DNA of 64,000 nt. Origin: Leptolyngbya sp. FACHB-321. Lineage in GTDB: Bacteria; Cyanobacteriota; Cyanobacteriia; Leptolyngbyales; Leptolyngbyaceae. The stretch's first letter is position 1; each line of letters starts with the position of its first letter. The notes beneath the pieces are model-generated. The model was not told the DNA's origin. It ran no database searches and saw nothing but the letters and a program-made list of their open reading frames with translations. A program made the translations under genes and the position numbers. Below are positions 22,214-45,572 of this stretch, in pieces. The stretch is taken from NCBI RefSeq assembly GCF_014695975.1, contig NZ_JACJPI010000070.1, forward strand, positions 1-64,000, in the 5' to 3' direction.

Positions 22214-22812
22214 ATACAACCTTTCGATAAAGAGAGAAAATTACGGTAAGTTTTAGATAAGTAAGCTACAGCTTTGTGAAGCAATAAAGATGTAGTTTAC
22301 GCAAATAAAAACGGCTGCAATCCAAGAAATGACTATTAGTGCAGTCACTACATATAAATGGCTAAGTAGCTGGGCGCAACTATCTACAAAACGCATCTCG
22401 ATCGACTGAGCACTTGCGCCGAGGTCTCAATGCTCCTAGTTCCGTGTGGCAATGGGTTGAGCGCAGCCGAAACCCAGTCTCTCAGGAATGCTTAATTTAG
22501 CCCTCCTACTTAAGTATACAAAAGCTACCCTTGTACCTCTCTTATTTTCAGCGCAGCGACATAGTAGCGTGAGAACAGCAACCAGAACGACGCACTATGA
22601 CTTTTAAGGTTCAGAACTTAGATTGAGCAATCGCCTGAAGTGAAGCGCTCGCTTTCAGAAACAGATCACTGAATCGGCTGAACCAGCAACATCGGTTCAG
22701 ATCATGCAATAACAATTAAATTCTGAGTAATGAATCCTAAATAGCTGCGAAAATAGTATATGTGGGTGCCTAACAGGGCATCCTTAGCAGATGCAGTTTG
22801 GTTGAGTCCCTC
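22214..22812. other. Divergent intergenic region upstream of the gal operon
   Basis: Promoter space for the Crp-like gene and the GH2-gal operon. It contains a GAGCGCAGCCGAAAC element near 22460 (also near 2680) and a copy of the TGCTYAATTTAGCCC element at 22489. No gene is seen. Confidence 0.45.
22489..22509. repeat. Dispersed intergenic element TGCTYAATTTAGCCCTCC, copy 2
   Basis: 20 of 21 positions match the copy at 14882-14902. Confidence 0.6.
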
Positions 22813-24786
22813 ATGAAAACCTTCGGTAAATGTCTCGAAGAACAATATCCGTGCGATCTGGCGAGCACAACCAGATTGCAGACCGATTTAGCGTATCCCC
22901 GCCCCCAACTTCAACGCTCTCAGTGGACTTCCCTTAACGGTACATGGAAGTTCACTTACGATGATGAAGGGCAGTATACGCGCCCCAGTAACATTCCGCT
23001 TTGGGATCAGTCTATAGAAGTTCCCTTCGCTCCCGAATCTATCCGTAGTGGTATTCACAACACTGGGTTTCATACTAATTGCTGGTATGAGCGCGAATTT
23101 GATGTAATGCCTGGGGACGATCGCGTTTTGCTGCACTTTGGTGCCGTCGATTACCGGGCGCGGGTTTGGGTCAATGGGCAGTTTATGGCTGACCACGAAG
23201 GCGGGCATACTCCTTTTTCAATGGATATTACGGCGGTTTTGCACCCAGAAGGACGCCAAACGGTGACGGTCTGGGCAGAAGACGACCCGCATGACCTGGC
23301 AAAACCCAGAGGCAAGCAAGACTGGCAGCGAGAACCGCATAGCATTTGGTATCCCCGCACCAGTGGCATTTGGCAAACAGTGTGGCTAGAGCAAGTACCA
23401 CAGACCTACATCGATCGCCTCAAGTGGACACCCCACTTTGACCGTTGGGAGATTGGCTTTGAGGCATTTGTGGCGGGCAAAACTCAGAAAGAAATGCAGC
23501 TAAAGGTGCGGCTAACCGTGGGCAACCAACTGCTGGTTAACGATACCTATGAAGTGCTAAACGGTGAAATTCATCGCCGCATTGCCTTGTCTGACCCAGG
23601 CATTGACGACTACCGCAACGAGTTGCTGTGGAGTCCAGAAAAGCCAACCCTCATTGATGCTGACATTCAGCTTTGGTGTCAGGGGCAACTCGTGGACGTA
23701 GTGCAATCCTACACGGCAATGCGGACGGTTAGCATCCAGCGCGATCGCTTCATGCTGAACGGGCACCCGTACTATCTACGTCTAGTGCTAGATCAGGGCT
23801 ATTGGGAAGAAACGCTGATGACCGCTCCCTCAGATGAGGCACTGCGGCGTGATGTCGAGCTTGCCAAGCAGATGGGCTTTAATGGCGTGCGGAAGCACCA
23901 GAAGATTGAAGATCCTCGCTTTCTCTATTGGGCAGATGTGCTAGGGCTGATGGTTTGGGAAGAAATGCCCAGTGCCTATCGCTTTACGCCTAAAGCGGTC
24001 GAACGGCTCATGAAAGAATGGACAGAGACGATCGAGCGAGATGCCAGCCATCCTTGTATTGTCGTCTGGGTGCCGTTTAACGAATCCTGGGGTGTGCCCG
24101 ATCTAACGGCAACTCCGGCACACCAACACTGTGTACAGGCGCTCTACCATCTCACCAAAACGCTCGATCCCACTCGACCTGTCATTGGCAACGATGGTTG
24201 GGAAAGTACAGCTACCGATATCCTGGCAATTCACGACTACGACACCAAGCCGTTGCGCTTAGCTAAACGCTATGGTCCTGAAGTGAAGCTATCAGATTTG
24301 TTCGATCGCCAGCGTCCGGGTGGTCGCGTGCTCACGCTGGATGGCTACCCACATCAGGGGCAGCCGATTATGCTGACGGAGTTTGGTGGCATTGCCTTCA
24401 CAAAGCCCGAAGAGAATCCTCACACTTGGGGCTACACTCGCTCCCACAATGCTCCAGAGCTGCAACTGCAATACACTGCGCTGTTACAAACGGTGAACAA
24501 AGTGGAAATGTTTAGTGGCTTCTGTTACACCCAGTTGACCGACACATTCCAGGAGGCCAATGGACTGCTTTATATCGATCGCACCCCTAAGTTTCCGTTA
24601 GAGGCGATCGCATCTGCCACTTTGGGAAGGGGCATTAACAACGAGGACGATACTATCCTTCTAGAATCTGTCAAAGTGGCATGGTCACAAATGGAAGATG
24701 TATTCTCAGACGCTCTTAAAGCCAGACGGACGCAACCTCATCCTGTACAGTCGCCAACCCATTGCGGCGGGGATTATTGCCCCTAG
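22813..24786 (+). CDS. Glycoside hydrolase family 2 (beta-galactosidase/glucuronidase type)
   Basis: A cytosolic enzyme with no signal peptide, about 657 residues. The GH2 order is present: a sugar-binding jelly roll (LNGTWKFTYDD, WYEREFDV, HEGGHTPF), an immunoglobulin-like domain, and a TIM barrel with acid/base Glu in FNESWG and nucleophile Glu in LTEFGG. Hydrolysis of terminal beta-galactosides or related sugars fits the adjacent galT and galK. The ATG at 22813 and a TTG five codons earlier are both possible; neither has a strong ribosome site. The last 29 codons overlap galT in another frame. That end (Arg/Pro/His-rich, no GH2 conservation) looks like read-through after loss of the original stop. 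Confidence 0.88.
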   Translation: MKTFGKCLEEQYPCDLASTTRLQTDLAYPRPQLQRSQWTSLNGTWKFTYDDEGQYTRPSNIPLWDQSIEVPFAPESIRSGIHNTGFHTNCWYEREFDVMPGDDRVLLHFGAVDYRARVWVNGQFMADHEGGHTPFSMDITAVLHPEGRQTVTVWAEDDPHDLAKPRGKQDWQREPHSIWYPRTSGIWQTVWLEQVPQTYIDRLKWTPHFDRWEIGFEAFVAGKTQKEMQLKVRLTVGNQLLVNDTYEVLNGEIHRRIALSDPGIDDYRNELLWSPEKPTLIDADIQLWCQGQLVDVVQSYTAMRTVSIQRDRFMLNGHPYYLRLVLDQGYWEETLMTAPSDEALRRDVELAKQMGFNGVRKHQKIEDPRFLYWADVLGLMVWEEMPSAYRFTPKAVERLMKEWTETIERDASHPCIVVWVPFNESWGVPDLTATPAHQHCVQALYHLTKTLDPTRPVIGNDGWESTATDILAIHDYDTKPLRLAKRYGPEVKLSDLFDRQRPGGRVLTLDGYPHQGQPIMLTEFGGIAFTKPEENPHTWGYTRSHNAPELQLQYTALLQTVNKVEMFSGFCYTQLTDTFQEANGLLYIDRTPKFPLEAIASATLGRGINNEDDTILLESVKVAWSQMEDVFSDALKARRTQPHPVQSPTHCGGDYCP

Positions 24787-25798
24787 TCCAAGCAACGACC
24801 CCGTTCAAGCGAATCCTCACCTGCGCTGGCATCCCCTGCGCGGTGAGTGGGTTGCCTATGCTAGCCATCGACAGGGGCGGACGTTTATGCCGCCCCCTGA
24901 ATATAATCCGCTGGCTCCAACCAAAGACCCTCAGTTCCCGACCGAACTGCCACAGGGAAACTATGACATTGCGGTTTTCCCTAATCGCTTTCCCTCGTTA
25001 ACGCCCTTAGCGGCAGATGCACCCTCAACTATTGTGGAGACGCTGCCTGCAAACGGCGCTTGTGAAGTCGTTGTGTTTACCCAAGACCCAGAGGCATCAT
25101 TGAGTTCTTTGCCGCTAGATCATCTGGAACTCCTGTTTCAGGTGTGGAGCGATCGTACTCGTGCCATTAGCGAGCATCCCCAAATTCAGTACGTCCTGCC
25201 GTTTGAAAACAAAGGCGTTGAAGTCGGTGTAACGCTACATCATCCTCACGGACAAATCTACGCTTATCCCTTTGTGCCACCAGTTCCGGCGCGGTTGGGC
25301 GAGTGCCAACTTGACTATTACCAGCAGCATCAACAGGGCTTATTGCAAGGCTTAATTCAAAACGAAATTTCTGATCAGCAACGGGTGCTGTATCAAGATG
25401 AGTGGGCGATCGCTTTCGTCCCCGTGTGCGCCCGTTATCCATACGAAGTCTGGATTGCGCCGATTAAACCCGTTGCTACGTTTATGGATTTGACCGCAGA
25501 GCAGCGATCGAGCCTTGCCAAAGCCCTCAAAACCGTGACGCTTAAATATGACGGCTTGTGGAATCGTCCCTTCCCTTATTTGATGGCATGGTTTCAGGCT
25601 CCACTCGATGGACAACCTCATCCCGAATGGCATCTACACGCGGAGTTTTACCCACCCTACCGCACGTCAGACAGACTCAAGTACCTGGCAGGAACAGAAC
25701 TTGCTGCCGGAATGTTTGCGAACGATGCGTTGCCCGAGGCAAAAGCAAAAGAGTTACAAGCAGTAACTGTTGAGCTAGAACAGGTCGTGCCGGTTTGA
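24698..25798 (+). CDS. galT: Galactose-1-phosphate uridylyltransferase
   Basis: Leloir-pathway enzyme: UDP-glucose plus galactose-1-phosphate gives glucose-1-phosphate plus UDP-galactose. The HIT-like active site HHPHGQ (His as the uridylylated nucleophile) and the family opening KPDGRNLILYSRQPI are present, as are NPHLRWHPLRGEW and WHLHAEFYPP. At 366 residues the length is normal. The conserved N-terminus confirms the ATG at 24698 even though it overlaps the GH2 gene by 89 bp. A typical zinc-ligand CxxC is absent, as in many bacterial forms. It makes the UDP-galactose that Glf (39890) would use. Confidence 0.95.
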   Translation: MYSQTLLKPDGRNLILYSRQPIAAGIIAPSPSNDPVQANPHLRWHPLRGEWVAYASHRQGRTFMPPPEYNPLAPTKDPQFPTELPQGNYDIAVFPNRFPSLTPLAADAPSTIVETLPANGACEVVVFTQDPEASLSSLPLDHLELLFQVWSDRTRAISEHPQIQYVLPFENKGVEVGVTLHHPHGQIYAYPFVPPVPARLGECQLDYYQQHQQGLLQGLIQNEISDQQRVLYQDEWAIAFVPVCARYPYEVWIAPIKPVATFMDLTAEQRSSLAKALKTVTLKYDGLWNRPFPYLMAWFQAPLDGQPHPEWHLHAEFYPPYRTSDRLKYLAGTELAAGMFANDALPEAKAKELQAVTVELEQVVPV

Positions 25799-26446: not shown

Positions 26447-26980
26447 ATGATGGAAACAACTAACCCAGCAAGCGTCAGCAGCCAGGTTCAAGCACAGGAA
26501 AATCCTCTCAGCTACCGCCCCTTAATCCTAGCCGGACTTGTTCTGGGGCTAGGACAGGGCGGTTTTTTTGATGGCATTGTTTTTCATCAACTGCTGCAAT
26601 GGCACCATATGTTTTCCAGCATTGAAACCGATATGACGATCGCTGGCATGGAACTAAACACCTTTGGCGATGGTTTATTCCACCTCTTTGATTGGTTGCT
26701 TACGTTGGTTGGCATTTTTCTACTTTGGCGTGCTGGACAGCAAGCAAAGGATGCCTGGTCGGGTCGGGTGTTTCTGGGTGCGTTACTGCTAGGTGCAGGG
26801 CTCTTTAACCTGGTTGAGGGCATTCTCGATCACCACCTTCTAGGCATTCATCACCTGAAACCAGGTGCCCATGAACTTTTATGGGATCTTGGCTTTCTTG
26901 GCTCTGGCGTTCTACTGATAAGCATTGGAGTACTCTTAATCCAGGCAACGATGAAAGAATCTGGTACTTTAACGCCATGA
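26447..26980 (+). CDS. DUF2243 membrane protein
   Basis: 177 residues, four transmembrane segments. The family motifs GQGGFFDGIVFHQLLQWHHM and LVEGILDHHLLGIHH are present; the histidines and acidic residues inside or next to membrane helices suggest metal or haem binding, though no function is established. Its TGA stop overlaps the ATG of the following M24-like gene (ATGA), so the two are translationally coupled within the gal gene cluster. The link to galactose metabolism is unclear. Confidence 0.88.
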   Translation: MMETTNPASVSSQVQAQENPLSYRPLILAGLVLGLGQGGFFDGIVFHQLLQWHHMFSSIETDMTIAGMELNTFGDGLFHLFDWLLTLVGIFLLWRAGQQAKDAWSGRVFLGALLLGAGLFNLVEGILDHHLLGIHHLKPGAHELLWDLGFLGSGVLLISIGVLLIQATMKESGTLTP

Positions 26981-28089
26981 GCGCCAACACTATGAATGTA
27001 TCTGACGAAATTGCCCGCAAGCTAGAGTTAATGCGGGACGCACTGCACGAAACTGGAGCCGCTGGCATCCGTCTGCGTGGAACAGATTGGTTTGCTTGGG
27101 CAACGGCGGGTGGTTCTAATACAGTGCTACTGGCGGCAGAAACAGGAGTCGCTGAAGTGCTGGTGACGGACGAAGCTGCCTGGATTCTTACTGATGAGAT
27201 TGAAGCGCAACGGTTAAAAGATGAACAGGTTCCAGCTGATGCTGGCTATCAGTGTCACGTTAGCCCGTGGGCACAGAGTCGCGATCGCGAAGCCTTTGTG
27301 CGTGAGACTACCAGTAACGGCAAGGTTTTAAGCGATCGCCCCACTCAAGCAGAAGCAGCATTACCCCGATCGCTGCTGCACCATAGGCGCATCATGTTGC
27401 CCGGAGAACTGGAACGCTATCGGCAGGTTGGGCGGCTTGCTAGCGAAGCAATGACAGAGGTGCTAACGCAGGCTCAACCAACCTGGACAGAATATCAGCT
27501 TGCTGGAGCGGGTGCAGAAGCGCTATGGGCACGTGGTCTACACCCTGCCTTGACACTGGCAGCAGGCGATCGCCGCTTGCCGCTTTACCGCCATCCCTTA
27601 CCCAGTGGAGAGACGATCGGACGGCAGGCAATGCTGGTCTTTTGCGCTCGCGGTAGTGGGTTGATCGTGAGCTTGACTCGCTTCGTTTGTTTTGGTGGCT
27701 TCACGGCAGAAGACAAGCAGTTGCATCGTACCATTGCGGAAATTGAGGCAGTGGCGCTCAAGCATTCTCAAGTAGAAGCGCCCTTAAATGAGGTGTATAA
27801 CGCACTAGCGACAGCCTATGAACAGCAGGGCTATCCACACGCTATTCAAGAGCATCATCAGGGCGGTACGGCAGGCTATGGGGCACGCGAAATTGTCGCA
27901 ACGCCGGAAACCAGCGATCGTTTGGCTGCAAACATGATCATTGCCTGGAATCCCAGCATTCCGGGTGCAAAGATTGAAGATACATTTGTCTTAAATGCGG
28001 ATCACAGCCTGGAGAATTTAAGTTTTGACACTCACTTTCCTCATGTTGAAATTGAAGGTCGGCTGCGCCCTGTACCCCTTGAACGATGA
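26977..28089 (+). CDS. M24 (Xaa-Pro aminopeptidase-like) protein lacking most metal ligands
   Basis: 370 residues in the pita-bread fold of M24 peptidases: an N-terminal creatinase-like domain (about 1-140) and a C-terminal domain. Of the five usual metal ligands, both Asp appear lost (LVFCARG and IVSLTRF where D-A-G and D-x-TR are expected), and the first Glu is also lost (IIAWNPS for V-E-P). His in EHHQGG and Glu in KIEDTF remain. It is therefore probably not a metallopeptidase and may bind a small molecule. I chose the ATG at 26977, coupled to the previous stop; the longer frame upstream lies inside the DUF2243 gene. Its own stop overlaps galK by 4 bp. Confidence 0.82.
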   Translation: MSANTMNVSDEIARKLELMRDALHETGAAGIRLRGTDWFAWATAGGSNTVLLAAETGVAEVLVTDEAAWILTDEIEAQRLKDEQVPADAGYQCHVSPWAQSRDREAFVRETTSNGKVLSDRPTQAEAALPRSLLHHRRIMLPGELERYRQVGRLASEAMTEVLTQAQPTWTEYQLAGAGAEALWARGLHPALTLAAGDRRLPLYRHPLPSGETIGRQAMLVFCARGSGLIVSLTRFVCFGGFTAEDKQLHRTIAEIEAVALKHSQVEAPLNEVYNALATAYEQQGYPHAIQEHHQGGTAGYGAREIVATPETSDRLAANMIIAWNPSIPGAKIEDTFVLNADHSLENLSFDTHFPHVEIEGRLRPVPLER

Positions 28090-29147
28090 TGGACTTTCAA
28101 CAAATCTTTCAGACAAAACCTGATATTGAAGCAAGTGCGCCGGGTCGCGTGAATTTGTTAGGCGAACACACTGACTACAACGATGGTTTTGTGCTGCCAA
28201 CGGCAATTCCACAACAAACAAACGTTTCAATTGGATACAGCCCCGACGATCGCCATCATTTCTATTCTGCTGAATTAGAGGAACGGATTGATGTTGAGCC
28301 AACAGCAATGGCTCTCGAAGGCTTTGCCAGCTATGTCAACGGCTGCATTCAAGTATTGAAACAAGCAGGCTATGAAAGCCCTCCTGTTAATGTTTTTGTC
28401 ACCTCATCAGTGCCGATCGGCTCAGGCTTGTCTAGCAGCGCGGCATTAGAAGTGGCAACGCTGCGAGCTTTGCGATCGCTCCTCAAGCTTGACCTTGATG
28501 ATGTACAGATTGCTCAATTGGGGCAACAGGCAGAAATTCAATATGCAGGCGTAAGCTGTGGCATTCTTGATCAAATGGCATCCAGCCTTGCCGATACAGA
28601 GCATATGCTGTTTCTAGATACTCGCACACTCGATCGCCAAATTCTACCGTTTCCTGCTGGGGCAGAGATTGTAGTGATTGATAGTGGTGTAGCGCGATCG
28701 CTGGCGAGCAGTGGCTATAACCAACGTCGATCGGAGTGTGAAGCCGCCGCCCGTCAGTTGGGCGTGAAGGCATTACGAGACATTAGCGATCCTCAAGCAG
28801 TAGAAGCCTTACCTGAACCTATCCGTAAACGTGCCCGTCATGTAGTCACCGAAGACAACCGGGTTTTAAAGGCTTTAGACGGTGTTTCGGCTCCTGTATT
28901 TGGTGAATTAATGAATGCATCCCACGTTAGCCTGCGAGATGATTATGAAGTCTCTGTACCCGCGTTAGACACGCTAGTAGAGCTTTTGCAGGGCACTCCC
29001 GGTGTCTTTGGCGCACGTCTGACAGGAGCAGGCTTTGGAGGCGCATGTGTTGCATTAGTCACTCTGGGAGAGGCACACACAATCGCTCAAACGGTGCTCG
29101 ATCGCTATAACGCCGCTGGGTATAACGGTCAGATTTTGGTTGACTGA
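28086..29147 (+). CDS. galK: Galactokinase
   Basis: GHMP-family kinase that phosphorylates galactose to galactose-1-phosphate with ATP. All three family motifs are present: the galactokinase signature APGRVNLLGEHTDYNDG, the ATP loop PIGSGLSSSAALE, and the C-terminal TGAGFGGACVAL. Its 353 residues are normal. The start overlaps the M24 gene stop (ATGATGG, two adjacent ATGs). It is the last gene of the cluster and supplies the substrate of GalT. A separate GalE epimerase is not in the window. Confidence 0.96.
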   Translation: MMDFQQIFQTKPDIEASAPGRVNLLGEHTDYNDGFVLPTAIPQQTNVSIGYSPDDRHHFYSAELEERIDVEPTAMALEGFASYVNGCIQVLKQAGYESPPVNVFVTSSVPIGSGLSSSAALEVATLRALRSLLKLDLDDVQIAQLGQQAEIQYAGVSCGILDQMASSLADTEHMLFLDTRTLDRQILPFPAGAEIVVIDSGVARSLASSGYNQRRSECEAAARQLGVKALRDISDPQAVEALPEPIRKRARHVVTEDNRVLKALDGVSAPVFGELMNASHVSLRDDYEVSVPALDTLVELLQGTPGVFGARLTGAGFGGACVALVTLGEAHTIAQTVLDRYNAAGYNGQILVD

Positions 29148-32252: not shown

Positions 32253-32407
32253 GGTAAAAACTCAAGAGCAGCTTAAGATAAGGCTTCAATTCTATTGACT
32301 TAAAGAAATTGAGTTTTTTGAAGAATTGCTGGTTAGATCGTCATTCTGCTTTTGCGATTGGGGACAATAAGGAATGTATAGAGGGTTACGTTTTCTCTAC
32401 CAAAGAG

Positions 32408-33253
32408 ATGAATTTAACCCTCGCATTCCCAATTGGAGCGGATAGTAAGTTGGTACAAAGTGTAGAGACTGTATTTACCGAGAGTGAGCTAGATCGGTTT
32501 GCAGAAGAGCTGAATCGAGATGGTATTTGTGTCATTCGTGGCTTATTCGATCGTGACCTGATTGATCGCTGGAAAGTCGCTTTCGATGCCTTATTTCAAG
32601 AGCGGCAACAGCGACCTGGTGGTTTGGCTCCCCGTGGTCAGGCGCGCTGTTATGCAACGTTGCCCTGGGTAGCACCGTTTGCGGACCCGGCTGTATATGC
32701 CAATCCAATCATCCGGGGAGTACTCAATCGCGTCTTTTTTCAAGAGTACAAGCTGGTGCAGCTAGCGGCTGACATCCCCTTGCAAGGTTCACAGTATCAG
32801 GAGATTCATCGCGATTTCCGTCCACTGTTTTCTGATCAAATTGTGACCCCACTGTATGCGCTGGCAGTGAATTTTTCGCTAGTTGAAGTAACAGAGGCAA
32901 ATGGTCCGTTTGAGATGGCGCGTGGTACTCATGTGATGTCGCGTGAGGAAGGCTTAGTTAAGATCCATGCCGGTGAAATTCCGATGGAGCAATTTTATAT
33001 GCAGCCAGGTGATGTCATGATTCGATCGCCCCTGGCACTGCATCGGGGTACGCCTAACTTAACGCCACAGCCCCGACCTATGATTGTGATGGGTTATGTT
33101 ATGCACTGGCTTCATACTCAAAAAGTAGATCTCACACTGCCACGGGCTTATTACGAAAGCCTATCGCCAGAAATACAAGAGCTACTTCGATGCAGAGTTG
33201 TAGATCAGTTAGCAGACAGTGAAGTCGAAACTTATATCAACTTCGCGTATTAA
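32408..33253 (+). CDS. Phytanoyl-CoA dioxygenase (PhyH) family protein
   Basis: A non-haem iron, 2-oxoglutarate-dependent oxygenase fold, about 281 residues. The iron triad is visible as HRD in YQEIHRDFRP and the distal His in LALHRGTPN, with Arg a few residues later for 2-oxoglutarate. The substrate of bacterial PhyH members is very varied (ectoine, lipids, secondary metabolites) and cannot be fixed here. I use the ATG at 32408 (MNLTLAF); a TTG at 32309 would add 33 unlikely residues. It is monocistronic, with a hairpin 27 bp after the stop. Confidence 0.8.
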   Translation: MNLTLAFPIGADSKLVQSVETVFTESELDRFAEELNRDGICVIRGLFDRDLIDRWKVAFDALFQERQQRPGGLAPRGQARCYATLPWVAPFADPAVYANPIIRGVLNRVFFQEYKLVQLAADIPLQGSQYQEIHRDFRPLFSDQIVTPLYALAVNFSLVEVTEANGPFEMARGTHVMSREEGLVKIHAGEIPMEQFYMQPGDVMIRSPLALHRGTPNLTPQPRPMIVMGYVMHWLHTQKVDLTLPRAYYESLSPEIQELLRCRVVDQLADSEVETYINFAY

Positions 33254-34031: not shown

Positions 34032-35012
34032 ATGAACACCTATACCAATCCGGTTTATCAAGATTATTTCGCTGACCCCTTTGTTTGGAAGCATCAGGGT
34101 GTCTACTATGCGATCGGCACTGGTCCCGCAGAAGCAGCAGGGCAGGTGGAGGAGAAGTCTCAGCAGCGGGTCTTTCCACTGCTTCAGTCTGATGATTTGG
34201 TGAACTGGCACTCTGCTGGGAAAGCGTTGCTGCGACCCGATCCTACTTTGGGCAATAACTTCTGGGCACCCGAAGTTGCCTACTGTGATGGCACTTTTTA
34301 CCTCTACTACTCCATTGGGCATGAGGATAAACACCATCAATTGCGAGTTGCCACCAGTACTGATCCGTTGGGACCATATGAGGATACAGGTGAGCCGTTA
34401 TTAGACCCCAAAACCTGCCCATTTGCGATCGATCCCAGTCCCTTTCAAGATGATGATGGGCAATGGTATCTCTTTTACGCTCAAGACTTTCTAGATACTG
34501 ACAATGGTGTTCGGGCGGGAACAGCTCTGATGGTCGATCGCCTCAACACGATGACGAAGCTAGAGGGCAAAGCAAACGTGGTTCTCCGCGCTCGTCACGA
34601 TTGGCAGCGGTTTTTGGCAGATCGCCCTATGTATGATGATATCTACGATTGGCATACGTTAGAAGGTCCTTGTGTTCGTAAACATGGCGATCGCTATTAT
34701 TGCTTTTACAGCGGTGGACGGTGGGAAACTGAAAGCTATGGCGTTGATTATGGTGTTGCCGATCAGGTGATGGGTCCCTATACCGATGCTGGTAATGAAG
34801 CGGGTGCGCGGGTGCTGCGCTCAGTGCCAGATTATGTGTTGGGTCCCGGTCATAACTCGATCGTGGCTAGTCCCGATGATCAAACCGAGTATTTGGTCTA
34901 CCACGCTTGGGATACAGGAATGCAAGCCCGCCGTATGTGTATTGATTCGCTTCTTTGGACACCTGATGGTCCTCGTTCTAAGGGACCAACCTGGACGCCA
35001 CAAACTATCTAA
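34032..35012 (+). CDS. Glycoside hydrolase family 43 protein
   Basis: A five-bladed beta-propeller enzyme of 326 residues without a signal peptide, so probably cytosolic. The catalytic triad fits GH43: Asp15 (base, FADPFVW), Asp134 (pKa modulator, AIDPSPF) and Glu211 (acid, LEGPCV). Family members release arabinose, xylose or galactose from oligosaccharides; the exact sugar cannot be told. It lies between the gal operon and the Glf operon and may help recycle the same glycan. The ribosome site is weak. A long stem-loop follows the gene. Confidence 0.9.
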   Translation: MNTYTNPVYQDYFADPFVWKHQGVYYAIGTGPAEAAGQVEEKSQQRVFPLLQSDDLVNWHSAGKALLRPDPTLGNNFWAPEVAYCDGTFYLYYSIGHEDKHHQLRVATSTDPLGPYEDTGEPLLDPKTCPFAIDPSPFQDDDGQWYLFYAQDFLDTDNGVRAGTALMVDRLNTMTKLEGKANVVLRARHDWQRFLADRPMYDDIYDWHTLEGPCVRKHGDRYYCFYSGGRWETESYGVDYGVADQVMGPYTDAGNEAGARVLRSVPDYVLGPGHNSIVASPDDQTEYLVYHAWDTGMQARRMCIDSLLWTPDGPRSKGPTWTPQTI

Positions 35013-37263: not shown

Positions 37264-37285
37264 GTGAAAAGTAAACAGGAGAAAA

Positions 37286-37828
37286 ATGGTGAATACTCAG
37301 CAGAAACGTGCACTTGGAATCCTTTCGGGTCACGAAAATACAGAAGGATCGCTCAAGGCATTGCATAGCTCTGGCTTTCCAATGGACAAAATCTCTGTCG
37401 TTGGTCGAGACTTAAACCCAGAAGCTGAAACACCAGGTAATGTTGAGATCAGCAATCAAGTTGGCGATACCAAAGTTGATGCGACCCAAAGCGCTGTTAG
37501 CAATACTGCAACGATAAGTGCAACTGGCTTTACGATGTTAGGGCTAACAAGTTTGGCATTACCTGGTCTTGGAGTTGTGCTTGCTGCGGGAAGCTTTGCA
37601 GCAGCATTAGCAGCAACGGTTGCCAGTACTGGGGTTGCAGCAGTAGCCGCAAATAACCTGGTTAAAGCATTATCTCAAATGGGTATTCCTGATGCTCAAG
37701 CTAGCTTATATAGCGATCAACTCCATCAAGGAAACTACCTTGTCATGATTGAAGGCTCAGAGGAAGAAATTCATCAGGCTGAGTCCATTCTCCGCGATTA
37801 CAAAGTCGCAGATTGGAACGTTTACTAG
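37286..37828 (+). CDS. General stress protein, YflT/GSP17M-like with glycine-rich hydrophobic centre
   Basis: 180 residues. An N-terminal ferredoxin-like half (RALGILSGHENTEGSLKALHSSGFPMDKISVVGRD) and a C-terminal half (NYLVMIEGSEEEIHQAESIL) flank a 60-residue Ala/Gly-rich hydrophobic stretch. That stretch could form a membrane hairpin. The N-terminal half resembles the general stress protein 17M/YflT domain. Function is not known; relatives are stress-induced in other bacteria. CAGGAGAAAA precedes the ATG. Confidence 0.78.
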   Translation: MVNTQQKRALGILSGHENTEGSLKALHSSGFPMDKISVVGRDLNPEAETPGNVEISNQVGDTKVDATQSAVSNTATISATGFTMLGLTSLALPGLGVVLAAGSFAAALAATVASTGVAAVAANNLVKALSQMGIPDAQASLYSDQLHQGNYLVMIEGSEEEIHQAESILRDYKVADWNVY

Positions 37829-38495
37829 ATCATTATGTTCACTATCGATTTCTTTCTTGACCAAAAGCTACCCTTTTGCTGCTAGGGCTATACCACCATT
37901 TGAAAAACGTATTTTTGAATGCAGTTCAGATGTTGAAATGACAGGTGCTAGTAAAGCAAGCTAACTTCTGCAGCCAGCTCGACTGCAATAACTGGGGTTG
38001 CTGAAATGTGAGGAGACGATCGCTAAAAGGTTTGAAGCTTTTTTCAAAACTAGCGGAACGAACCCACTACGCAGCAACACCCAGTTCTTTAAAACCCTTA
38101 CAAATAGAGCTTTTGAGCCTTTACCTCTAAAGAGATATAGTGAAAGCCGTATATATCGTTGTATCGTTGAGTACACCTATTTTTTACAATTTCAGCAAAA
38201 TAGCCTTACTTAGGAATGAGCTAAGTTCTTCTCGCAGGAGGGACTTAAACTGAGCTAAAACTGTTATTTTTTAAGCAGTCAATACTTCAGCGAAAAACAA
38301 TCTAGCAATTTAGCGCTTCTGCAACATAAATGAAATCTTTGGTTTCAGTTTATTGAGCATGGAACTTAGATTGCGGGATCTACAGGTTAACTTTTAAACC
38401 TGGCTCCTGGTTGAAAACTGCATAACTTTTTTGAAAGGTTTAGTTTCTGTGTGAGTCTCATCCGCTCACTAAGTTCGTGATTTATGAGGTAATCA
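37829..38495. other. Intergenic region upstream of the Glf operon
   Basis: 667 bp; promoter space for the glycosyltransferase operon. A 71-codon frame at 37998-38213 is not convincing. No repeat stood out. Confidence 0.4.
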
Positions 38496-39824
38496 ATGTC
38501 CACATATCCCGCTTCGGATCAGCGCTTTGAAGAAAAGGACGCATCAGAAAAGCAGTCTTCAGATATTCCTTTTCAACTTGAACAAAACCTTATTTATCTG
38601 AAGTGGTCTGAAAAGACGGATTTAGAATCTTTAGAATCTAATACCAGCGTATCTGATCTAGTTTGTTTCTCTCATCTACGATGGGACTTTGTGTATCAAC
38701 GCCCCCAACATTTACTTAGCCGTTGTGCACAAGCTCGCAGAGTATTTGTTGTGGAGGAGCCGCTCGATAGCCCAGATGATTCTTACTATTTAGACATCAG
38801 CAGGCGTGAGTGTGGTGTTTGGGTTGTAGTGCCACACTTGCCTCAAGGTTTGAGTGAAGACCAGGCGATCGCACTGCAACGGCTGTTAGTTGATGCCTTG
38901 ATTGCAGAGGCTCAAATCCAAACCCCAATTCTCTGGTATTACAACCCGATGGCAGTGCCATTCACTCATCACTTAGATGCTTCAGCCATTGTTTATGACT
39001 GCATGGATGAGTTATCTGCCTTTCAAGGAGCGCATCCAGAGTTGCAAACCCGCGAAGCGCATCTCTTTGAGCTAGCTAATTTAGTTTTTACAGGCGGGCT
39101 TAGCCTCTACGAAGCTAAACAGCATCAGCATTCCAGCGTTCATGCGTTTCCCAGCAGTATTGATGCAGCCCACTTTGCTCAGGCAAGGGTAATTGGTGAA
39201 GAGCCATCAGACCAAGCAGCGATCCCCCATCCCCGTTTAGGGTTTTATGGTGTGGTTGATGAGCGGATGGATCTTGCTCTGCTAGAGGGTATAGCTCAAA
39301 CACGACCCGATTGGCACTTGGTCATCATTGGTCCCGTTGTCAAAATTGACCCGGCGCTCTTACCCAAGTATCCCAATATTCATTATTTAGGCGGCAAATC
39401 TTATCAAGAATTACCTAGCTATTTGGCAGGGTGGGATGTAGCGCTGTTGCCCTTTGCCCGTAATGAATCAACCCGTTTTATTAGCCCAACTAAAACGCCA
39501 GAATACCTTGCAGCCGGTAAACCCGTTGTCTCTACGTCTATTCGGGATGTAGTACGACCTTATGGTGATGAGGAACTGGTTTATATAGCTGATACGGTAC
39601 CAGAGTTTGTGACAGCGATCGAAAAAGCGTTAGCTCAAAGCCAAACCAATAATGATTGGTTGAACCGAGTGGATGCTTTCTTATCACAAATCTCTTGGGA
39701 TTTGACCTGGCAAGCGATGAACGAGTTGATTGAAGCTGTGATCGCCGCCCCAAAGCAGGGAAAAAGCAGCATACAACAAGAAGAAACGTCTACGGCTACT
39801 GAACTTGTTTCATCACGCAAGTAG
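38496..39824 (+). CDS. Glycosyltransferase, GT-B fold (TuaH-like)
   Basis: 442 residues, GT-B fold. The opening after a 45-residue acidic leader is CFSHLRWDFVYQRPQHLLSR, typical of TuaH-like family 1 transferases. The C-terminal domain has ALLPFARNESTRFISPTKTPEYLAAGKPVVST, where the Glu binds the nucleotide-sugar ribose. No membrane segment is seen. GAGGT precedes the ATG. It is the first gene of a four-gene operon with UDP-galactopyranose mutase 65 bp downstream, so transfer of galactofuranose or another sugar to a glycan is plausible, but not shown. Confidence 0.85.
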   Translation: MSTYPASDQRFEEKDASEKQSSDIPFQLEQNLIYLKWSEKTDLESLESNTSVSDLVCFSHLRWDFVYQRPQHLLSRCAQARRVFVVEEPLDSPDDSYYLDISRRECGVWVVVPHLPQGLSEDQAIALQRLLVDALIAEAQIQTPILWYYNPMAVPFTHHLDASAIVYDCMDELSAFQGAHPELQTREAHLFELANLVFTGGLSLYEAKQHQHSSVHAFPSSIDAAHFAQARVIGEEPSDQAAIPHPRLGFYGVVDERMDLALLEGIAQTRPDWHLVIIGPVVKIDPALLPKYPNIHYLGGKSYQELPSYLAGWDVALLPFARNESTRFISPTKTPEYLAAGKPVVSTSIRDVVRPYGDEELVYIADTVPEFVTAIEKALAQSQTNNDWLNRVDAFLSQISWDLTWQAMNELIEAVIAAPKQGKSSIQQEETSTATELVSSRK

Positions 39825-39889
39825 CCCATTGCGATCACTAACGTTAACCGATCGCCGATTTAAATTATTTACTACAAGGATATAGACCC

Positions 39890-41173
39890 ATGTTCGACTA
39901 TCTCATCGTCGGTGCAGGCTTTGCTGGCAGCATTTTAGCAGAGCGTCTAGCAAGCCAGAGCGACAAAAAAATCTTGATTGTCGATACTCGCAATCATATT
40001 GGTGGCAATGCCTATGACCATTACAACGAAGACGGCATTTTGGTGCATAAGTATGGTCCCCATATTTTCCACACCAATTCGCGTGATGTGTTTGAATATC
40101 TCTCTCGCTTTACCGAATGGCGACAGTATGAACATCGGGTGCTTGCCAGCGTAGATGGTCAACTGGTGCCAATGCCAATCAATTTGGATACGATTAATAA
40201 GCTCTATGGCTTGAATCTAACCGCTTTTGAGCTGACAGAATTTTTTGCCTCTGTTGCTGAACCAAAAGAGCAGATTCGCACCTCTGAAGATGTAGTAGTT
40301 AACAAAGTGGGACGCGAACTCTATGAAAAGTTCTTCCGCAACTACACAATCAAACAATGGGGTATTGATCCATCTGATCTAGACAAATCGGTGACCGCTC
40401 GTGTGCCTACTCGCACTAACCGGGACGATCGCTATTTCACCGATACCTATCAAGCGATGCCGCTACACGGTTATACGCGAATGTTTGAGAAACTGTTAGC
40501 GCATCCCAATATTAAAATCATGCTCAACACGGATTACCGTGAGATTCAAGGCGTCATTCCTTACAAGGAGATGATTTATACGGGACCTGTTGACGGGTAT
40601 TTTGATTATCGGTATGGCAAACTACCCTATCGATCGCTTGAGTTCAAACACGAAACGTTGAACGAACAAGTGCATCAGCCCCAAGCAGTGATCAACTATC
40701 CCAATGAGCATCTCTATACTCGTGTCACAGAGTTCAAATATTTGACTGGGCAAGAGCATCAAAAGACCAGCCTTGTGTACGAATATCCTAGAGCAGAGGG
40801 CGACCCTTACTATCCCGTGCCTCGTCCTGAAAATGCTGAACTGTACAAGCAGTACAAAGCTTTGGCTGATGCCACACCCAACGTTCACTTTGTCGGACGG
40901 CTTGCCACTTACAAGTACTACAACATGGATCAAGTAGTGGCTCAGGCACTGTCTCTTTATGCTCAGTTAGCTGAACGCCCAAGCTGGCATCCCGAAGAAG
41001 AGAGCGTACCTGCTAAGAAAGCGATCGCGCCTGATACTGCCAGCAATCGTTCGTTCCAGCCCTCTCCAAGCAAGCTACCGCTGACAAACTTTCCTACCTC
41101 TAGCTCAGGCAAGTCAGAAAAGTTGAATGGTAATGGCAAGGCGCTTTCACCCACTCAAAATGGTTCAGCCTGA
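39890..41173 (+). CDS. glf: UDP-galactopyranose mutase
   Basis: A flavoenzyme that interconverts UDP-galactopyranose and UDP-galactofuranose. The FAD loop GAGFAGS (8-14), the GGNAYDHYNEDG segment, YGPHIFHT with the conserved His, and the C-terminal YKYYNMDQVVAQAL motif all fit. The core ends near residue 380. About 45 extra residues form a Ser/Pro/Lys/Asn-rich tail without homology. AAGGATATAGACCC precedes the ATG. The product is the donor for galactofuranose, a sugar of surface polysaccharides and glycolipids; GalT and GalK nearby can supply its substrate. Confidence 0.95.
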   Translation: MFDYLIVGAGFAGSILAERLASQSDKKILIVDTRNHIGGNAYDHYNEDGILVHKYGPHIFHTNSRDVFEYLSRFTEWRQYEHRVLASVDGQLVPMPINLDTINKLYGLNLTAFELTEFFASVAEPKEQIRTSEDVVVNKVGRELYEKFFRNYTIKQWGIDPSDLDKSVTARVPTRTNRDDRYFTDTYQAMPLHGYTRMFEKLLAHPNIKIMLNTDYREIQGVIPYKEMIYTGPVDGYFDYRYGKLPYRSLEFKHETLNEQVHQPQAVINYPNEHLYTRVTEFKYLTGQEHQKTSLVYEYPRAEGDPYYPVPRPENAELYKQYKALADATPNVHFVGRLATYKYYNMDQVVAQALSLYAQLAERPSWHPEEESVPAKKAIAPDTASNRSFQPSPSKLPLTNFPTSSSGKSEKLNGNGKALSPTQNGSA

Positions 41174-41212
41174 CCGCGATTGATCAGTTTTTAACAAGGA
41201 TATGAGGACGCT

Positions 41213-43456
41213 ATGAGTTCAAAACAAGTGCCGCCGCTGGAACTGTGGGGCGGCATTGAATGTACTGTGAATCGCGTTGGTGAGCAGTACTTTGACCAAC
41301 TCGATCGCAACGGACATAATACTCGGATTGAAGACCTCGATCAATTTTCAGCTCTGGGTATAACAACGATCCGCTATCCCATTTTGTGGGAGCGTATTGC
41401 CCCCAATGGGCTAGCGCAGGCAGATTGGAGTTGGGCAGATGAACGCCTGAGTTATCTAGATACGCTCGGACTTCGCCCGATCGTCGGTTTAGTGCATCAC
41501 GGCAGCGGTCCTCGTCACACGAGTTTGATTGATCCTGCTTTCCCAGAAAAGCTCGCTGAATATGCAGGTGCAGTCGCTCAACGTTATCCCTGGGTTAGCC
41601 ACTATACCCCGGTTAACGAACCTTTGACGACGGCACGGTTTAGCGGGCTGTATGGTCACTGGTATCCGCATGGTCAAGATGATGCCACGTTCGTGCGTAC
41701 GCTGCTTAATCAGTGCCGTGCGACAGTGCTATCAATGCAAGCCATTCGGCAAATTAATCCTCAGGCTCAACTGGTGCAGACAGAGGATTTGGGTAAAACC
41801 TTTAGTACACCGTTGCTGGCATACCAGGCAGAATTTGAGAACGATCGCCATTGGCTTTCACTCGATTTACTGTGTGGTCATGTCAATCCCTCGCACCCTT
41901 TATGGAGCTATCTGCGTCAGTCAGGGGCTGAGGAAGCCGAGTTGCTATGGTTCCAAGCCAATCCCTGCCCACCAGACATTGTTGGTATTAATCGCTATGT
42001 TTGTGGCGATCGATTTATTGATGAGCGGATTGATCGCTATCCTGAGCGCACACGTGGTGGCAATGGGAAACACCAGTATGCTGATGTGGAAGCAGTCTGG
42101 GTCTGTGCCGATGGCATCTATGACCATGCCATACTGCTAAAGGAAGCATGGGAACGTTACCAGCGCCCTCTTGCTATCACGGAAGCACATCTAGGTTGCA
42201 CCCGTGAAGAACAGTTGCGCTGGCTCAAAGAGATTTGGCAGGTCGCTCAAGGCTTGCAAGCTGAGGGTGTAGCGATGCGAGCCGTAACGGTTTGGTCGCT
42301 GCTGGGGACGTATGACTGGAATAGTTTGGTGACTCGCGCCGACGATTTCTATGAGCCGGGTGTGTTTGATGTGCGGTCTCCCGTGCCGCGTTCCACTGCC
42401 ATTGCCACGATGCTGAAATCTCTTGCTCAAGGGCAGGAATACACCCATCCATTGCTTGATCTGCCCGGGTGGTGGCAGCGATCGCAACGGCTCCTTTACC
42501 CACCTGTAAGTTATGCCAAGAGCCTGGGGGGCTGGGCTGATACTGCTCCGGTAGAGACGCTTGCTACCCCCATGATGCGGCGCACAAAAGGTGCAAAGAC
42601 CACGATCGCATCCACTCCGCCCCTAGTGATTACAGGTGCAACGGGCACTTTGGGTCAAGCCTTTGCTCGCATCTGCGAGATCCGTGGGATTCCCTACTAC
42701 CTCCTGTCGCGTCAGGAGATGGATATCACGAAGCCAGCTACCGTTACAAGTGTGTTGGATGAGTTGCAGCCCTGGGCAGTCGTCAATGCCTCTGGCTATG
42801 TACGGGTAGATGATGCCGAGCGAGAACCTTATCTTTGCCGCCGCATCAATGCTGACGGAGCCGCCATTCTGGCGGATGCCTGTGCCCAACGCAGTCTTGG
42901 CTTAATCAACTTTTCGTCTGATTTAGTCTTTGATGGCGCTCATAAGCAACCATATTTAGAAAGTGATGGAGTCTCACCGCTGAATGTGTATGGTCATAGC
43001 AAAGCAGCGGCAGAACGGTGGGTGTTGCATCACCATCCCTGTGCGTTAGTCATTCGCACAAGCGCCTTTTTTGGTCCTTGGGATGAGCATAATTTTCTCA
43101 CGATCGCCCTTCGCACCCTAAGGGCAGGCAATGTGTTTATGGCAGCAGAAGATGCAATCGTGTCACCAACGTATGTGCCCGATCTGGTTAATGCCAGCCT
43201 CGATTTATTGATTGATGGTGAGTGCGGTCTATGGCATCTGGCAAATCCTGGGGCAATTGCCTGGTCAGAGTTAGCCCGGTGGACGGCACAGCTTGCCGGA
43301 CTCGATGTCTCCTCAGTTCAATCTTGCTCTACCAAAACCCTTGCTCTTGCTGCACCTCGCCCAGCTTACAGCGTGCTGGGAAGCGAACGCGGCATCTTAT
43401 TGCCTGATCTCAGTCAGGCGATCGAGCGTTACCTGGAAGAGTGCCACCAACTCTAG
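41213..43456 (+). CDS. GH1-like glycosidase fused to an RmlD-like sugar-nucleotide reductase
   Basis: A 747-residue fusion. Residues 1 to about 420 form a GH1 (clan A) TIM barrel with acid/base Glu136 in TPVNEP and a likely nucleophile Glu324 in AITEAHLG, which replaces the usual ITENG. Residues about 470-745 form an RmlD-type extended SDR with TGATGTLGQ at 474-482 and catalytic Tyr593 and Lys597 (YGHSK). RmlD reduces dTDP-4-keto-rhamnose; the true substrate here is unknown. The linker (about 430-468) is polar. GAGGACGCT precedes the ATG. It follows glf by 39 bp and precedes the MBL gene by 15 bp, so the operon joins sugar removal or transfer with nucleotide-sugar reduction in one polypeptide. 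Confidence 0.88.
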   Translation: MSSKQVPPLELWGGIECTVNRVGEQYFDQLDRNGHNTRIEDLDQFSALGITTIRYPILWERIAPNGLAQADWSWADERLSYLDTLGLRPIVGLVHHGSGPRHTSLIDPAFPEKLAEYAGAVAQRYPWVSHYTPVNEPLTTARFSGLYGHWYPHGQDDATFVRTLLNQCRATVLSMQAIRQINPQAQLVQTEDLGKTFSTPLLAYQAEFENDRHWLSLDLLCGHVNPSHPLWSYLRQSGAEEAELLWFQANPCPPDIVGINRYVCGDRFIDERIDRYPERTRGGNGKHQYADVEAVWVCADGIYDHAILLKEAWERYQRPLAITEAHLGCTREEQLRWLKEIWQVAQGLQAEGVAMRAVTVWSLLGTYDWNSLVTRADDFYEPGVFDVRSPVPRSTAIATMLKSLAQGQEYTHPLLDLPGWWQRSQRLLYPPVSYAKSLGGWADTAPVETLATPMMRRTKGAKTTIASTPPLVITGATGTLGQAFARICEIRGIPYYLLSRQEMDITKPATVTSVLDELQPWAVVNASGYVRVDDAEREPYLCRRINADGAAILADACAQRSLGLINFSSDLVFDGAHKQPYLESDGVSPLNVYGHSKAAAERWVLHHHPCALVIRTSAFFGPWDEHNFLTIALRTLRAGNVFMAAEDAIVSPTYVPDLVNASLDLLIDGECGLWHLANPGAIAWSELARWTAQLAGLDVSSVQSCSTKTLALAAPRPAYSVLGSERGILLPDLSQAIERYLEECHQL

Positions 43457-43471
43457 CAACGGTGAAACGTT

Positions 43472-44323
43472 ATGCATATCCATCATCTCAATTGTGGCTG
43501 TATGTGTCCCCTTGGCGGAGCATTGTGGGATGGTTTTAGCCGTGGTTTAACAGCACAGCTTGTCTGCCACTGCCTGCTCATTGAAACCGAGCAAGGGCTT
43601 GTTCTGGTCGATACGGGCTTTGGGCAGCAAGATGTTCAAGCGCCTTATGCACGGCTCAGCCCATTTTTTGTTCACGTCAACAATGTTCAGTTCAATTACA
43701 AAAACACCGCGATTGAGCAGGTTAAAAGCCTCGGCTTTGCTGCCAGCGATGTTCGCCATATTGTGTTGACGCATCTTGATTTTGACCATGCAGGTGGTCT
43801 AGAAGATTTCCCTAATGCAACAGTGCATGTGATGCAGGCTGAACGTGATGCTGCCCGCGAGCGACACGGGTTTATCAACCGTCGGCGCTATCGTCCCAAG
43901 CTGTGGGATGAAGTCAAACAGTGGCGTTACTATGCTGCCGGAGGCGAACCTTGGTTTGGCTTTGAGGCAGTCCGTGACCTGGATGGGTTACCGCCAGAAA
44001 TTCTGCTGATTCCCCTGACTGGTCACACCCGTGGTCATGCAGGCGTAGCGATCAACACTCCCGATGGATGGCTGCTCAACGCGGGTGATGCCTACTTTTA
44101 TCGACATGAAATGGATGCTACTAACCGCCACTGCACGCCAGGATTACTTGCCTATCAGCGAGTTATGGAAGTAGACCGTCAAGCACGGCTCCATAATCAA
44201 GACCGGCTGTATGAACTGGCGTGCGATCGCGCTAGCAATGTACGCCTCTTTTGTAGCCACGATGCGATCGAGTTCAAAACATTTTCTGAACAAGCGGCTC
44301 CAGCCTCTCAAGTCCAAGCTTAA
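43472..44323 (+). CDS. MBL-fold metallo-hydrolase
   Basis: 283 residues with the metallo-beta-lactamase signature HLDFDHAGG (zinc ligands), a downstream GHTRGHAG His and a final Asp/His pair (NAGDAYFY, CSHDAIEF). The family includes lactonases and other hydrolases. The N-terminus has three Cys in HLNCGCMCPLGG. No signal peptide is seen. It is the last gene of the Glf operon, 15 bp after the fusion gene. A role in glycan or lactone hydrolysis is possible but open. Confidence 0.88.
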   Translation: MHIHHLNCGCMCPLGGALWDGFSRGLTAQLVCHCLLIETEQGLVLVDTGFGQQDVQAPYARLSPFFVHVNNVQFNYKNTAIEQVKSLGFAASDVRHIVLTHLDFDHAGGLEDFPNATVHVMQAERDAARERHGFINRRRYRPKLWDEVKQWRYYAAGGEPWFGFEAVRDLDGLPPEILLIPLTGHTRGHAGVAINTPDGWLLNAGDAYFYRHEMDATNRHCTPGLLAYQRVMEVDRQARLHNQDRLYELACDRASNVRLFCSHDAIEFKTFSEQAAPASQVQA

Positions 44324-44648
44324 AAGCCTTGCAATGTGTGAAAAGCCAGTGATTTATGACTTTTGCTTAGGCTTTTAATTCCTGATTAAACGTCTGGTGA
44401 AGTAGGAGCCTTTTTAGGCGATCAGCAGTTGACAGAAAAGGGTTCTGTCCAGCTACGGTACTGCTTCGATAGTCTTGCTTAATAACCCTGAAACCAATCT
44501 TCTAGATTAAGCTCCATTTTCAATATCACCTTGGACGGGTGCAGCAAAAGAGCTTTTGAGCGCTGTGTTATAGAGCGCGATCGCGTTAATGACAACATCA
44601 CAAAATTTCCAAAATTTCGTTTAACAAGTTATCCATTGGTAAGAGATT
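44324..44648. other. Intergenic region, no gene seen
   Basis: End of the Glf operon and promoter region of the isoaspartyl peptidase gene. A HIP1 site lies near 44578. No clear terminator. Confidence 0.4.
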
Positions 44649-45572
44649 ATGACTATCGCAATTGTTGTACATGGCGGAGCAAAAACTGTCTCCCCAGATA
44701 AGGAGCAACCCAATAAAGAGGGGTGCTTAGCTGCTGTTCAAGCCGGCTGGCAAATTCTGGAACAGGGAGGCGATGCTAGAGCTGCAGTTGAAGCTGCCAT
44801 TCGTGTGCTTGAATCTGACCAAACCTTTAATGCAGGGTTCGGCTCGACTCTTAACAGTGAAGGTGAGGTTGAGGTTGATGCCGCAATGATGGAAAGCAAA
44901 ACATTGCGATGGGGAGCCGTGGCAGCGGTGCAGGGACTGCGTCATCCAATCTCTGCTGCTCGCAAGGTGATGGAAGAGAAACCACGGCTACTAGTCGCAC
45001 GTAGTGGAGAACGCTTTGCCCGTGAACATGGACTGGAGTTGTGCCCTAAAGAAGACCTCGTCAGCCAGGAACAACGACAAGAGTGGGAAGAAGAGGTAGA
45101 GGTGATCGATCGTCCCAATACAGTTGGCTGCGTGGCATTGGATGTCAATGGCATTCTGGTTGCTGGCACCTCAACAGGAGGCACAACGGGTCAACCTCAA
45201 GGTCGAGTGGGTGATACAGCATTAGTTGGCAGTGGCTTGTATGCCGATCACCGGGGGGCTTGCTCCACCACAGGCGACGGCGAATCGATTATCCCAGTAG
45301 TGCTGGCAAAGACAGCGGTTGACTTTTTATCGGGTGACGCTGCCAGTATGGACGGTGTTCTTGCGGTTCATCCTGAACAAGCTGCTGAGAAGGCAATTGA
45401 AGTACTAAAGCAGCGAGTTTCTGGAGAGGCGGGCTGTATTTTGCTCGATCAAAATGGGCGCATCGGCTGGGCATACAACTCTCAAGACATGGCAGTTGCT
45501 TACATGCATGACGAGTTGCAACAGCCTGCGGTCTTTATCTCTAAGGAGGATGAAGCACCTGTAAATATGTAG
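44649..45572 (+). CDS. iaaA: Isoaspartyl peptidase / plant-type L-asparaginase
   Basis: An N-terminal-nucleophile hydrolase that removes beta-aspartyl residues and hydrolyses asparagine. The precursor cleaves itself before Thr158 in RPNTVGCVALD; GTSTGGTTGQPQGRVGDT binds the substrate, and GDGE in STTGDGESI is typical. In cyanobacteria this enzyme also splits beta-Asp-Arg dipeptides released from cyanophycin. The 307-residue length is normal. GGTAAGAG precedes the ATG. The next gene encodes an ATP-grasp ligase, but the two are separated by an inverted repeat. Confidence 0.93.
   Translation: MTIAIVVHGGAKTVSPDKEQPNKEGCLAAVQAGWQILEQGGDARAAVEAAIRVLESDQTFNAGFGSTLNSEGEVEVDAAMMESKTLRWGAVAAVQGLRHPISAARKVMEEKPRLLVARSGERFAREHGLELCPKEDLVSQEQRQEWEEEVEVIDRPNTVGCVALDVNGILVAGTSTGGTTGQPQGRVGDTALVGSGLYADHRGACSTTGDGESIIPVVLAKTAVDFLSGDAASMDGVLAVHPEQAAEKAIEVLKQRVSGEAGCILLDQNGRIGWAYNSQDMAVAYMHDELQQPAVFISKEDEAPVNM

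Follow-up and report, generated by a model that had tools for sequence, protein, structure and literature searches.

A glycosyltransferase, Glf and GH1-RmlD gene set shared by Leptolyngbya and unrelated bacteria is the probable core of a galactofuranose pathway with its own salvage arm

We analysed a stretch of 64,000 nucleotides from Leptolyngbya sp. FACHB-321 (contig NZ_JACJPI010000070.1, positions 1 to 64,000), hereafter the window, in which an initial annotation had described a four-gene operon for a dedicated glycan pathway. We propose that three of these genes, encoding a group-1 glycosyltransferase (GT), the UDP-galactopyranose mutase Glf and a protein that joins a GH1 glycosidase domain to an RmlD-type reductase domain, constitute the synthetic core of a galactofuranose (Galf) pathway to which a salvage arm is attached, a reading to which we assign a probability of roughly 60%. 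Galf is the rare five-membered-ring form of galactose, and Glf makes UDP-Galf. Open reading frame (ORF) coordinates and family matches bear out the layout of the block: the genes for the GT (38496..39824; GT4-like, PF13692 at 45.4 bits with a cut-off of 27, proposed to be a galactofuranosyltransferase), Glf (39890..41173), the GH1-RmlD protein (41213..43456; 747 amino acids) and a lactonase-like hydrolase of the MBL fold (43472..44323; PF00753, 64.3 bits) all lie on the forward strand, separated by gaps of 65, 39 and 15 bp. A promoter and terminator scan of positions 37800-45000 gave results at chance level (9 found, 8.9 expected; 6 found, 6.3 expected), so that it is spacing and conservation that support the term operon.

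The conserved unit consists of the first three genes only. We surveyed 75 loci, of which 60 came from a pattern-based scan of named genomes and 15 from cyanobacterial genomes. The scan relied on six short peptide patterns, which makes the survey incomplete, and the loci vary in length, so the neighbour counts, scored by tblastn, are lower bounds. RmlD was matched in 75 and GH1 in 72 loci, followed by Glf (47), the GT (46), GalK (13), GH2 (12), GalE, GH43 and PhyH (10 each), and GalT and M24 (8 each). Seven other neighbours from the window, which served as an internal control, were each found in 0 to 3 of the 75 loci: the hemerythrin-domain protein, the isoaspartyl peptidase and the ATP-grasp protein in three, the DUF4383 protein in two and the MBL hydrolase in one, with the Mn-catalase and the 37286 protein absent from the tally. 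Conservation of the block thus extends to the GT, Glf and GH1-RmlD but not to the MBL hydrolase. We rejected the latter as a fourth core gene, as its single match (56% identity) is not adjacent to the fusion and none was found in further sets of 15 and 9 loci. For the 13 GalK matches, a rough model of chance placement, with one copy per 5-Mb genome and 22 kb sampled, returns p ~2e-17, a value that is too optimistic given shared descent. The GH2-GalT-GalK genes are placed upstream and divergently in Lysobacter, downstream in Ramlibacter, and upstream on the same strand in Polyangium.

Glf scores 398.5 bits against TIGR00031, above the equivalog cut-off of 303.75, and the match runs over residues 1-359 of the protein and 1-375 of the 378 profile positions; it is the single Glf of the genome. 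Moreover, GT and Glf are encoded as one ORF in 12 of 98 loci, 11 of them cyanobacterial and one from a metagenome-assembled genome of the Gaiellaceae. The annotated glf of Gloeothece verrucosa PCC 7822, located on a plasmid, has 808 codons, a length that suggests a GT-Glf fusion. The next gene is named 'family 1 glycosylhydrolase', and galK, galT and GH2 occupy the opposite strand.

The association is also seen at the level of whole genomes, for which we used a sample of the order (42 genomes) and one of the phylum (386 genomes, with a maximum of two candidates scored per genome). Within the order 7 genomes have the fusion, 15 have Glf, 16 GalK and 10 GH2. Glf and GalK are present in all seven fusion genomes and in all ten GH2 genomes, and GH2 is present in five of the seven fusion genomes. 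Fisher tests that ignore kinship yield p values of 2.4e-4 for fusion and Glf, 2.0e-6 for GH2 and Glf, 5.4e-6 for GH2 and GalK, and 5.0e-5 for GalK and Glf. Across the phylum, all 12 fusion-bearing genomes (10 with a full-length fusion, one with a decayed copy and one with a copy cut at a contig end) have Glf, compared to 111 of 386 overall (hypergeometric 2e-7). Finally, Glf was found in 21 of 21 named fusion genomes tested, versus 4 of 14 control genomes.

The putative salvage arm lies on the same strand upstream of the block, where family matches confirm that galK, galT and GH2 are present, though at a distance of ~9 to 16 kb and not adjacent to it. It comprises GH2 (22798..24786; Pfam GH2 domains), galT (24698..25798; PF01087, PF02744), a recurrent M24 peptidase-like protein (26881..28089; PF00557, 50.3 bits) and galK (28086..29147; PF10509, PF00288, PF08544). 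The best PDB matches of the GH2 protein are 7XYR (5e-101), 7SF2 (8e-78) and 9J6N/9J6M (3e-71/1e-70), the last two being the beta-D-galactofuranosidase of Streptomyces sp. JHA19; the next entry follows at 3e-25. 7XYR belongs to GH2_19 and 9J6M to GH2_18 (PMC12243196), and since it is closest to sequences of these two subfamilies, the window protein falls into the furanose-active group III. It contains the NE motif and TEFGG; the former is also found in 17 of 17 aligned neighbours but is missing from 7XYR. A Thr in the YTQ stretch is present in all 18 aligned GH2 rows and is probably the residue that replaces the -1 Trp as described in PMC12243196. According to the same paper, GH2_18 enzymes are mostly secreted, GH2_19 enzymes mostly not, and the subfamily proposed for the window GH2 is ~10% secreted. 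The window GH2 has the Streptomyces enzyme and 7XYR among its closest PDB matches and contains the NE motif and the Thr of the YTQ stretch; it looks cytosolic and is coupled to galT. We propose, on sequence grounds, that it is a cytosolic beta-D-galactofuranosidase.

In the window, galT starts 89 bp within the GH2 gene, in a different frame. We analysed this junction in 19 loci, with start codons picked by rule. GH2 and galT are on the same strand in 12 of them and overlap in 11, the remaining pair (L006) being separated by 394 bp. The overlap measures 89 bp in six loci (out of frame, as in the window), 98 bp in two and 1 bp in three proteobacteria. Of the other loci, four have galT on the other strand, one is decayed and one lacks GH2. 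The Polyangium GH2 gene shares 8 bp with galK. Same-strand GH2 genes therefore overlap galT or galK in 12 of 13 pairs from three phyla (cyanobacteria, Lysobacter, Ramlibacter, Polyangium). These overlaps suggest translational coupling, and GH2 most likely feeds galactose into GalK and GalT. Two suggestions of the initial annotation, a dedicated Galf pathway and the recycling of galactose through galK, galT and GH2, are in line with these results, as the GT-Glf-fusion set recurs together with galK, galT and GH2 in other phyla and a furanosidase-type GH2 overlaps galT or galK.

From the protein families, their co-occurrence and co-location, the gene fusions and overlaps and the catalytic residues, the steps of the pathway may be assigned as follows. 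Glf makes UDP-Galf, and the GT, often one polypeptide with Glf, would transfer Galf to an acceptor. The cytosolic-looking GH2 would remove Galf, and the galactose so released would be converted back to UDP-Gal for use by Glf, through GalK, GalT and, in loci that have it, GalE. The GH1-RmlD protein would perform a further carbohydrate step of the pathway. GH2, GH43, GalK and GalT are also typical companions in catabolism, and GH2, GH43 and GH1-RmlD could instead degrade imported galactan or arabinogalactan oligosaccharides, with GalK and GalT using the galactose. However, the most constant neighbours of the fusion, Glf and the GT, are biosynthetic (47 and 46 of 75 loci), and no sugar transporter was found among 20 ORFs scanned between 17.6 and 52.1 kb (smaller ORFs being outside the scan), which makes a catabolic function very improbable.

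A number of observations weigh against the proposed Galf pathway. The co-occurrence statistics are uncorrected for phylogeny, the survey contains near-duplicate loci (L005 and L111, for example, have identical fusions), and in the phylum the fusion is missing from 99 of the 111 genomes with Glf. In Massilia the fusion lies apart from Glf, and the Glf copy found elsewhere is only ~41% identical; a GT of 45-49% lies within ~10 kb in five of six Massilia and Herbaspirillum loci (L133, L134, L135, L144 and L145, not L132). Within 10 kb of the fusion, the annotation of Deinococcus deserti shows neither GT nor Glf, and that of Azospirillum thermophilum a GT but no glf. The GT itself has no sequence relative in the PDB and reaches 76.9 bits against the TuaH equivalog, for which the cut-off is 550. 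Finally, some GH2_19 enzymes are alpha-L-arabinofuranosidases (PMC12243196), and the GH2 could accordingly act on arabinofuranose, although the coupling with galT favours galactose.

The GH1-RmlD fusion is an unstudied enzyme: its database name is just 'family 1 glycosylhydrolase', and no paper on such a fusion was found in the open-licence PMC literature. Its GH1 half matches PF00232 (39.4 bits, cut-off 22.6, residues 37-370) and its RmlD half PF04321 (206.5 bits, residues 471-725). From the 75 loci we gathered 69 full-length fusion ORFs, which are 49-81% identical to the window protein and are distributed over nine phyla (eight labels among the rows of the tree described below, and Deinococcota). 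Among the 98 loci, both halves are found in one ORF in 73 ORFs; an RmlD match of at least 48% stands alone in six loci and GH1 in three (L051, L058, L059), some of these being at contig ends or frameshifted. An alignment of 48 sequences shows no exchange at E136 and E324 (GH1 half) or at S568 and Y593 (RmlD half); K597 is conserved in at least 90%. A predicted structure of the fusion (pLDDT 91.4, pTM 0.91) superimposes in its GH1 half on the beta-glucosidase 2j78 of T. maritima (Z 36.1, root-mean-square deviation 2.9, 379 residues, 18% identity) and in its RmlD half on 1vl0 (Z 38.1, root-mean-square deviation 1.6, 276 residues).

Pfam gathering score, (beta/alpha)8 fold and both catalytic glutamates place the first half in GH1. 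In alignments with GH1 structures, E136 and E324 fall in the NEP and ITE stretches, and we take them to be the acid/base and the nucleophile, respectively. The HW and EW stretches form the canonical sugar pocket of GH1 beta-glucosidases. The fusion has H95-H96 and D368-W369 at the positions where aligned GH1 structures have HW and EW, and its sugar pocket therefore differs from that of beta-glucosidases. Thus, fold and catalytic glutamates are common to the fusion and to enzymes such as that of T. maritima, but in the fusion His96 replaces the Trp that follows the conserved His, and Asp368 replaces the Glu of the NLEW stretch. The fusion scores 56.1 against the BGL equivalog, whose cut-off is 478.5. 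The second half has the Rossmann fold and the Ser-Tyr-Lys residues of RmlD. We read the fusion as a retaining glycosidase fold whose sugar pocket is altered, joined to an NAD(P)-type ketone reductase.

The initial annotation had also considered a deoxyhexose pathway, which for the fusion would mean a dTDP-rhamnose role. The reductase fold and the Ser, Tyr and Lys residues of the RmlD half are compatible with such a role. The genome, however, has a stand-alone RmlD elsewhere that scores 372.7 bits, above the equivalog cut-off of 224.05, and rmlC at two other places, so that the fusion is not required as RmlD. The RmlD half of the window fusion stays below this cut-off at 211.9, only two of seven fusions tested pass it (L021 and L030), and the ORFs scanned near the block include no further rml gene. 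We consider the deoxyhexose role very improbable.

A tree of 70 rows groups the fusions mainly by phylum and recovers the cyanobacterial rows as one clade with a support of 99 (quick method, long branches flagged). An old and patchily kept family is therefore likelier than a recent spread between phyla, which this grouping disfavours. Some genomes have two copies of the fusion (L003/L140 and L008/L139), the second on another contig with its own GT and Glf, and in L004 two copies lie within one locus. The fusion of L108 (G385:C1, ~1197500-1199400) is decayed; it contains stops and a stretch that is repeated in part, and it still lies beside GT, Glf, GH43, PhyH and GH2. A second GH1-like family (20.3 bits, below the Pfam cut-off of 22.6) was seen beside the fusion or RmlD in L009 (12447-13643), L043, L055 and L059, and directly after GT-Glf in L142 (10200-11321).

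Five genomes of another genus of the family are without the fusion. In all five, GH2 and Glf are found together, with the GT adjacent in four, galT-M24-galK in four and galE in two, the GH2 gene being divergent. Given these fusion-free clusters, the Galf salvage set is modular. All five genomes also encode GlfT2_N (PF17994). In L147 (590-4516), for which the families were run, a GlfT2-like protein, a HAD hydrolase and a mannitol dehydrogenase are found near the Galf-type GH2; similar ORFs are present in L146, L148, L149 and L150. Within the order, each of the 15 Glf genomes has either the fusion or GlfT2_N, with both only in G185. As strict alternatives, however, the two fail in the phylum sample: GlfT2_N occurs in 10 of 386 genomes, four of which also have the fusion (G185, G074, G197, G385). 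Neither of the two is present in 93 of the 111 Glf genomes. In the mycobacterial-type galactan system, as in the proposed pathway, Glf supplies UDP-Galf to a dedicated transferase. The window system differs in that its GT belongs to group 1, a salvage arm is attached and GlfT2_N has no match in the genome.

These results bear on the nature of the product. The GT might add Galf to a lipid-linked or lipopolysaccharide glycan that GH1-RmlD trims or modifies, which would make the locus part of a surface polysaccharide or lipopolysaccharide core pathway. Galf is classically a surface sugar, according to a review (PMC7278926), and the genus without the fusion combines a GlfT2-like galactan synthase with the GT-Glf-GH2 cluster. 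Moreover, as a further point against our main reading, the Massilia fusions lie, as read by eye, among MsbA-like, heptosyltransferase-like and O-antigen-ligase-like genes. However, the 20 ORFs scanned include no exporter of the ABC type or other, flippase, polymerase, or initiating or lipid-carrier transferase, no signal peptide was recognized by eye in the cluster enzymes, the subfamily proposed for the GH2 is ~10% secreted, and GlfT2_N is absent from all 31 named fusion genomes. A surface product is thus possible but unlikely. Because signal peptides and a nearby exporter or polymerase are not seen, we favour a soluble intracellular Galf oligosaccharide over a surface polymer, a preference that we hold at a little less than even odds.

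A candidate for such a product are the beta-D-galactofuranosyl-(1->6)-oligosaccharides of Nostoc commune, which end in 1,4-anhydrogalactitol (Wieneke et al. 2007, as cited in PMC3826126). They are the one reported cyanobacterial Galf oligosaccharide series found in our literature search. The open-licence PMC literature yielded no genes for them, and nothing useful on galactofuranosyl-mannitol in lichens. The series is of the type expected of Glf and a Galf-transferase, and its reduced end would require a reductase. An anhydro, reduced end needs an unusual step of glycosyl cleavage or activation as well as a reduction, for which GH1 joined to an RmlD-type reductase would be a plausible fit. We therefore consider, as a speculative and rather doubtful extension, that the locus might serve the biosynthesis and turnover of Nostoc-type beta-(1->6)-galactofuranosyl-1,4-anhydrogalactitols, with GH1-RmlD making the anhydrogalactitol end. 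The GH1-fold half would cleave a galactofuranosyl unit, the glycosyl-enzyme would collapse by elimination to a 1,4-anhydro-ketose, and the RmlD-fold half would reduce the ketone. Glf and the GT would extend this primer, and GH2, GalK and GalT would recycle it. Alpha-1,4-glucan lyase and 1,5-anhydrofructose reductase, in which a glycosidase fold ends its reaction in elimination and the anhydro-ketose is then reduced, provide a model for this chemistry. They are, however, two separate proteins with other folds that act on glucan, and the likeness lies in the chemistry only.

Further genes of the window adjoin or interrupt the cluster. Two of them are recurrent neighbours on the forward strand, a PhyH-type Fe/2-oxoglutarate dioxygenase (32309..33253; PF05721) and GH43 (34032..35012; PF04616, 166.8 bits), which adjoin each other in L005, L099, L101, L106, L107, L108, L109 and L111. 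The best PDB match of the PhyH protein is kanamycin B dioxygenase (5e-15), an enzyme with a sugar-containing substrate, and by this similarity it may modify the compound of the cluster. The M24 protein has no PDB sequence match at E 0.01. Inside the cluster, the segments 30181-32252 and 35596-37828 encode a hemerythrin-domain protein, a DUF4383 protein, an Mn-catalase and one protein without family match, all four of which look stress-related and seldom recur with the fusion. Downstream of the block (44649-47232), an isoaspartyl-peptidase-type Asparaginase_2 is followed by an ATP-grasp protein that resembles the Asp-Met ligase LdmS (101 bits, far below the model cut-off of 475); the two are possibly a dipeptide make-and-break pair. 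L008 and L107 have both of them near the fusion, L102 has just the ATP-grasp protein and L002 just the peptidase.

The contribution of galactofuranosidases to Galf metabolism is described as still unclear in the review cited above (PMC7278926). Since unrelated bacteria have a furanosidase-type GH2 gene close to Glf and overlapping with galT or galK, a Galf recycling loop can be put to a direct test. The cluster would supply genes for a known class of cyanobacterial Galf oligosaccharides and would give a function to a widespread two-domain protein. If the fusion did make anhydrogalactitol, this would be new enzyme chemistry, and related protectant sugars would be expected from its carriers in all nine phyla.

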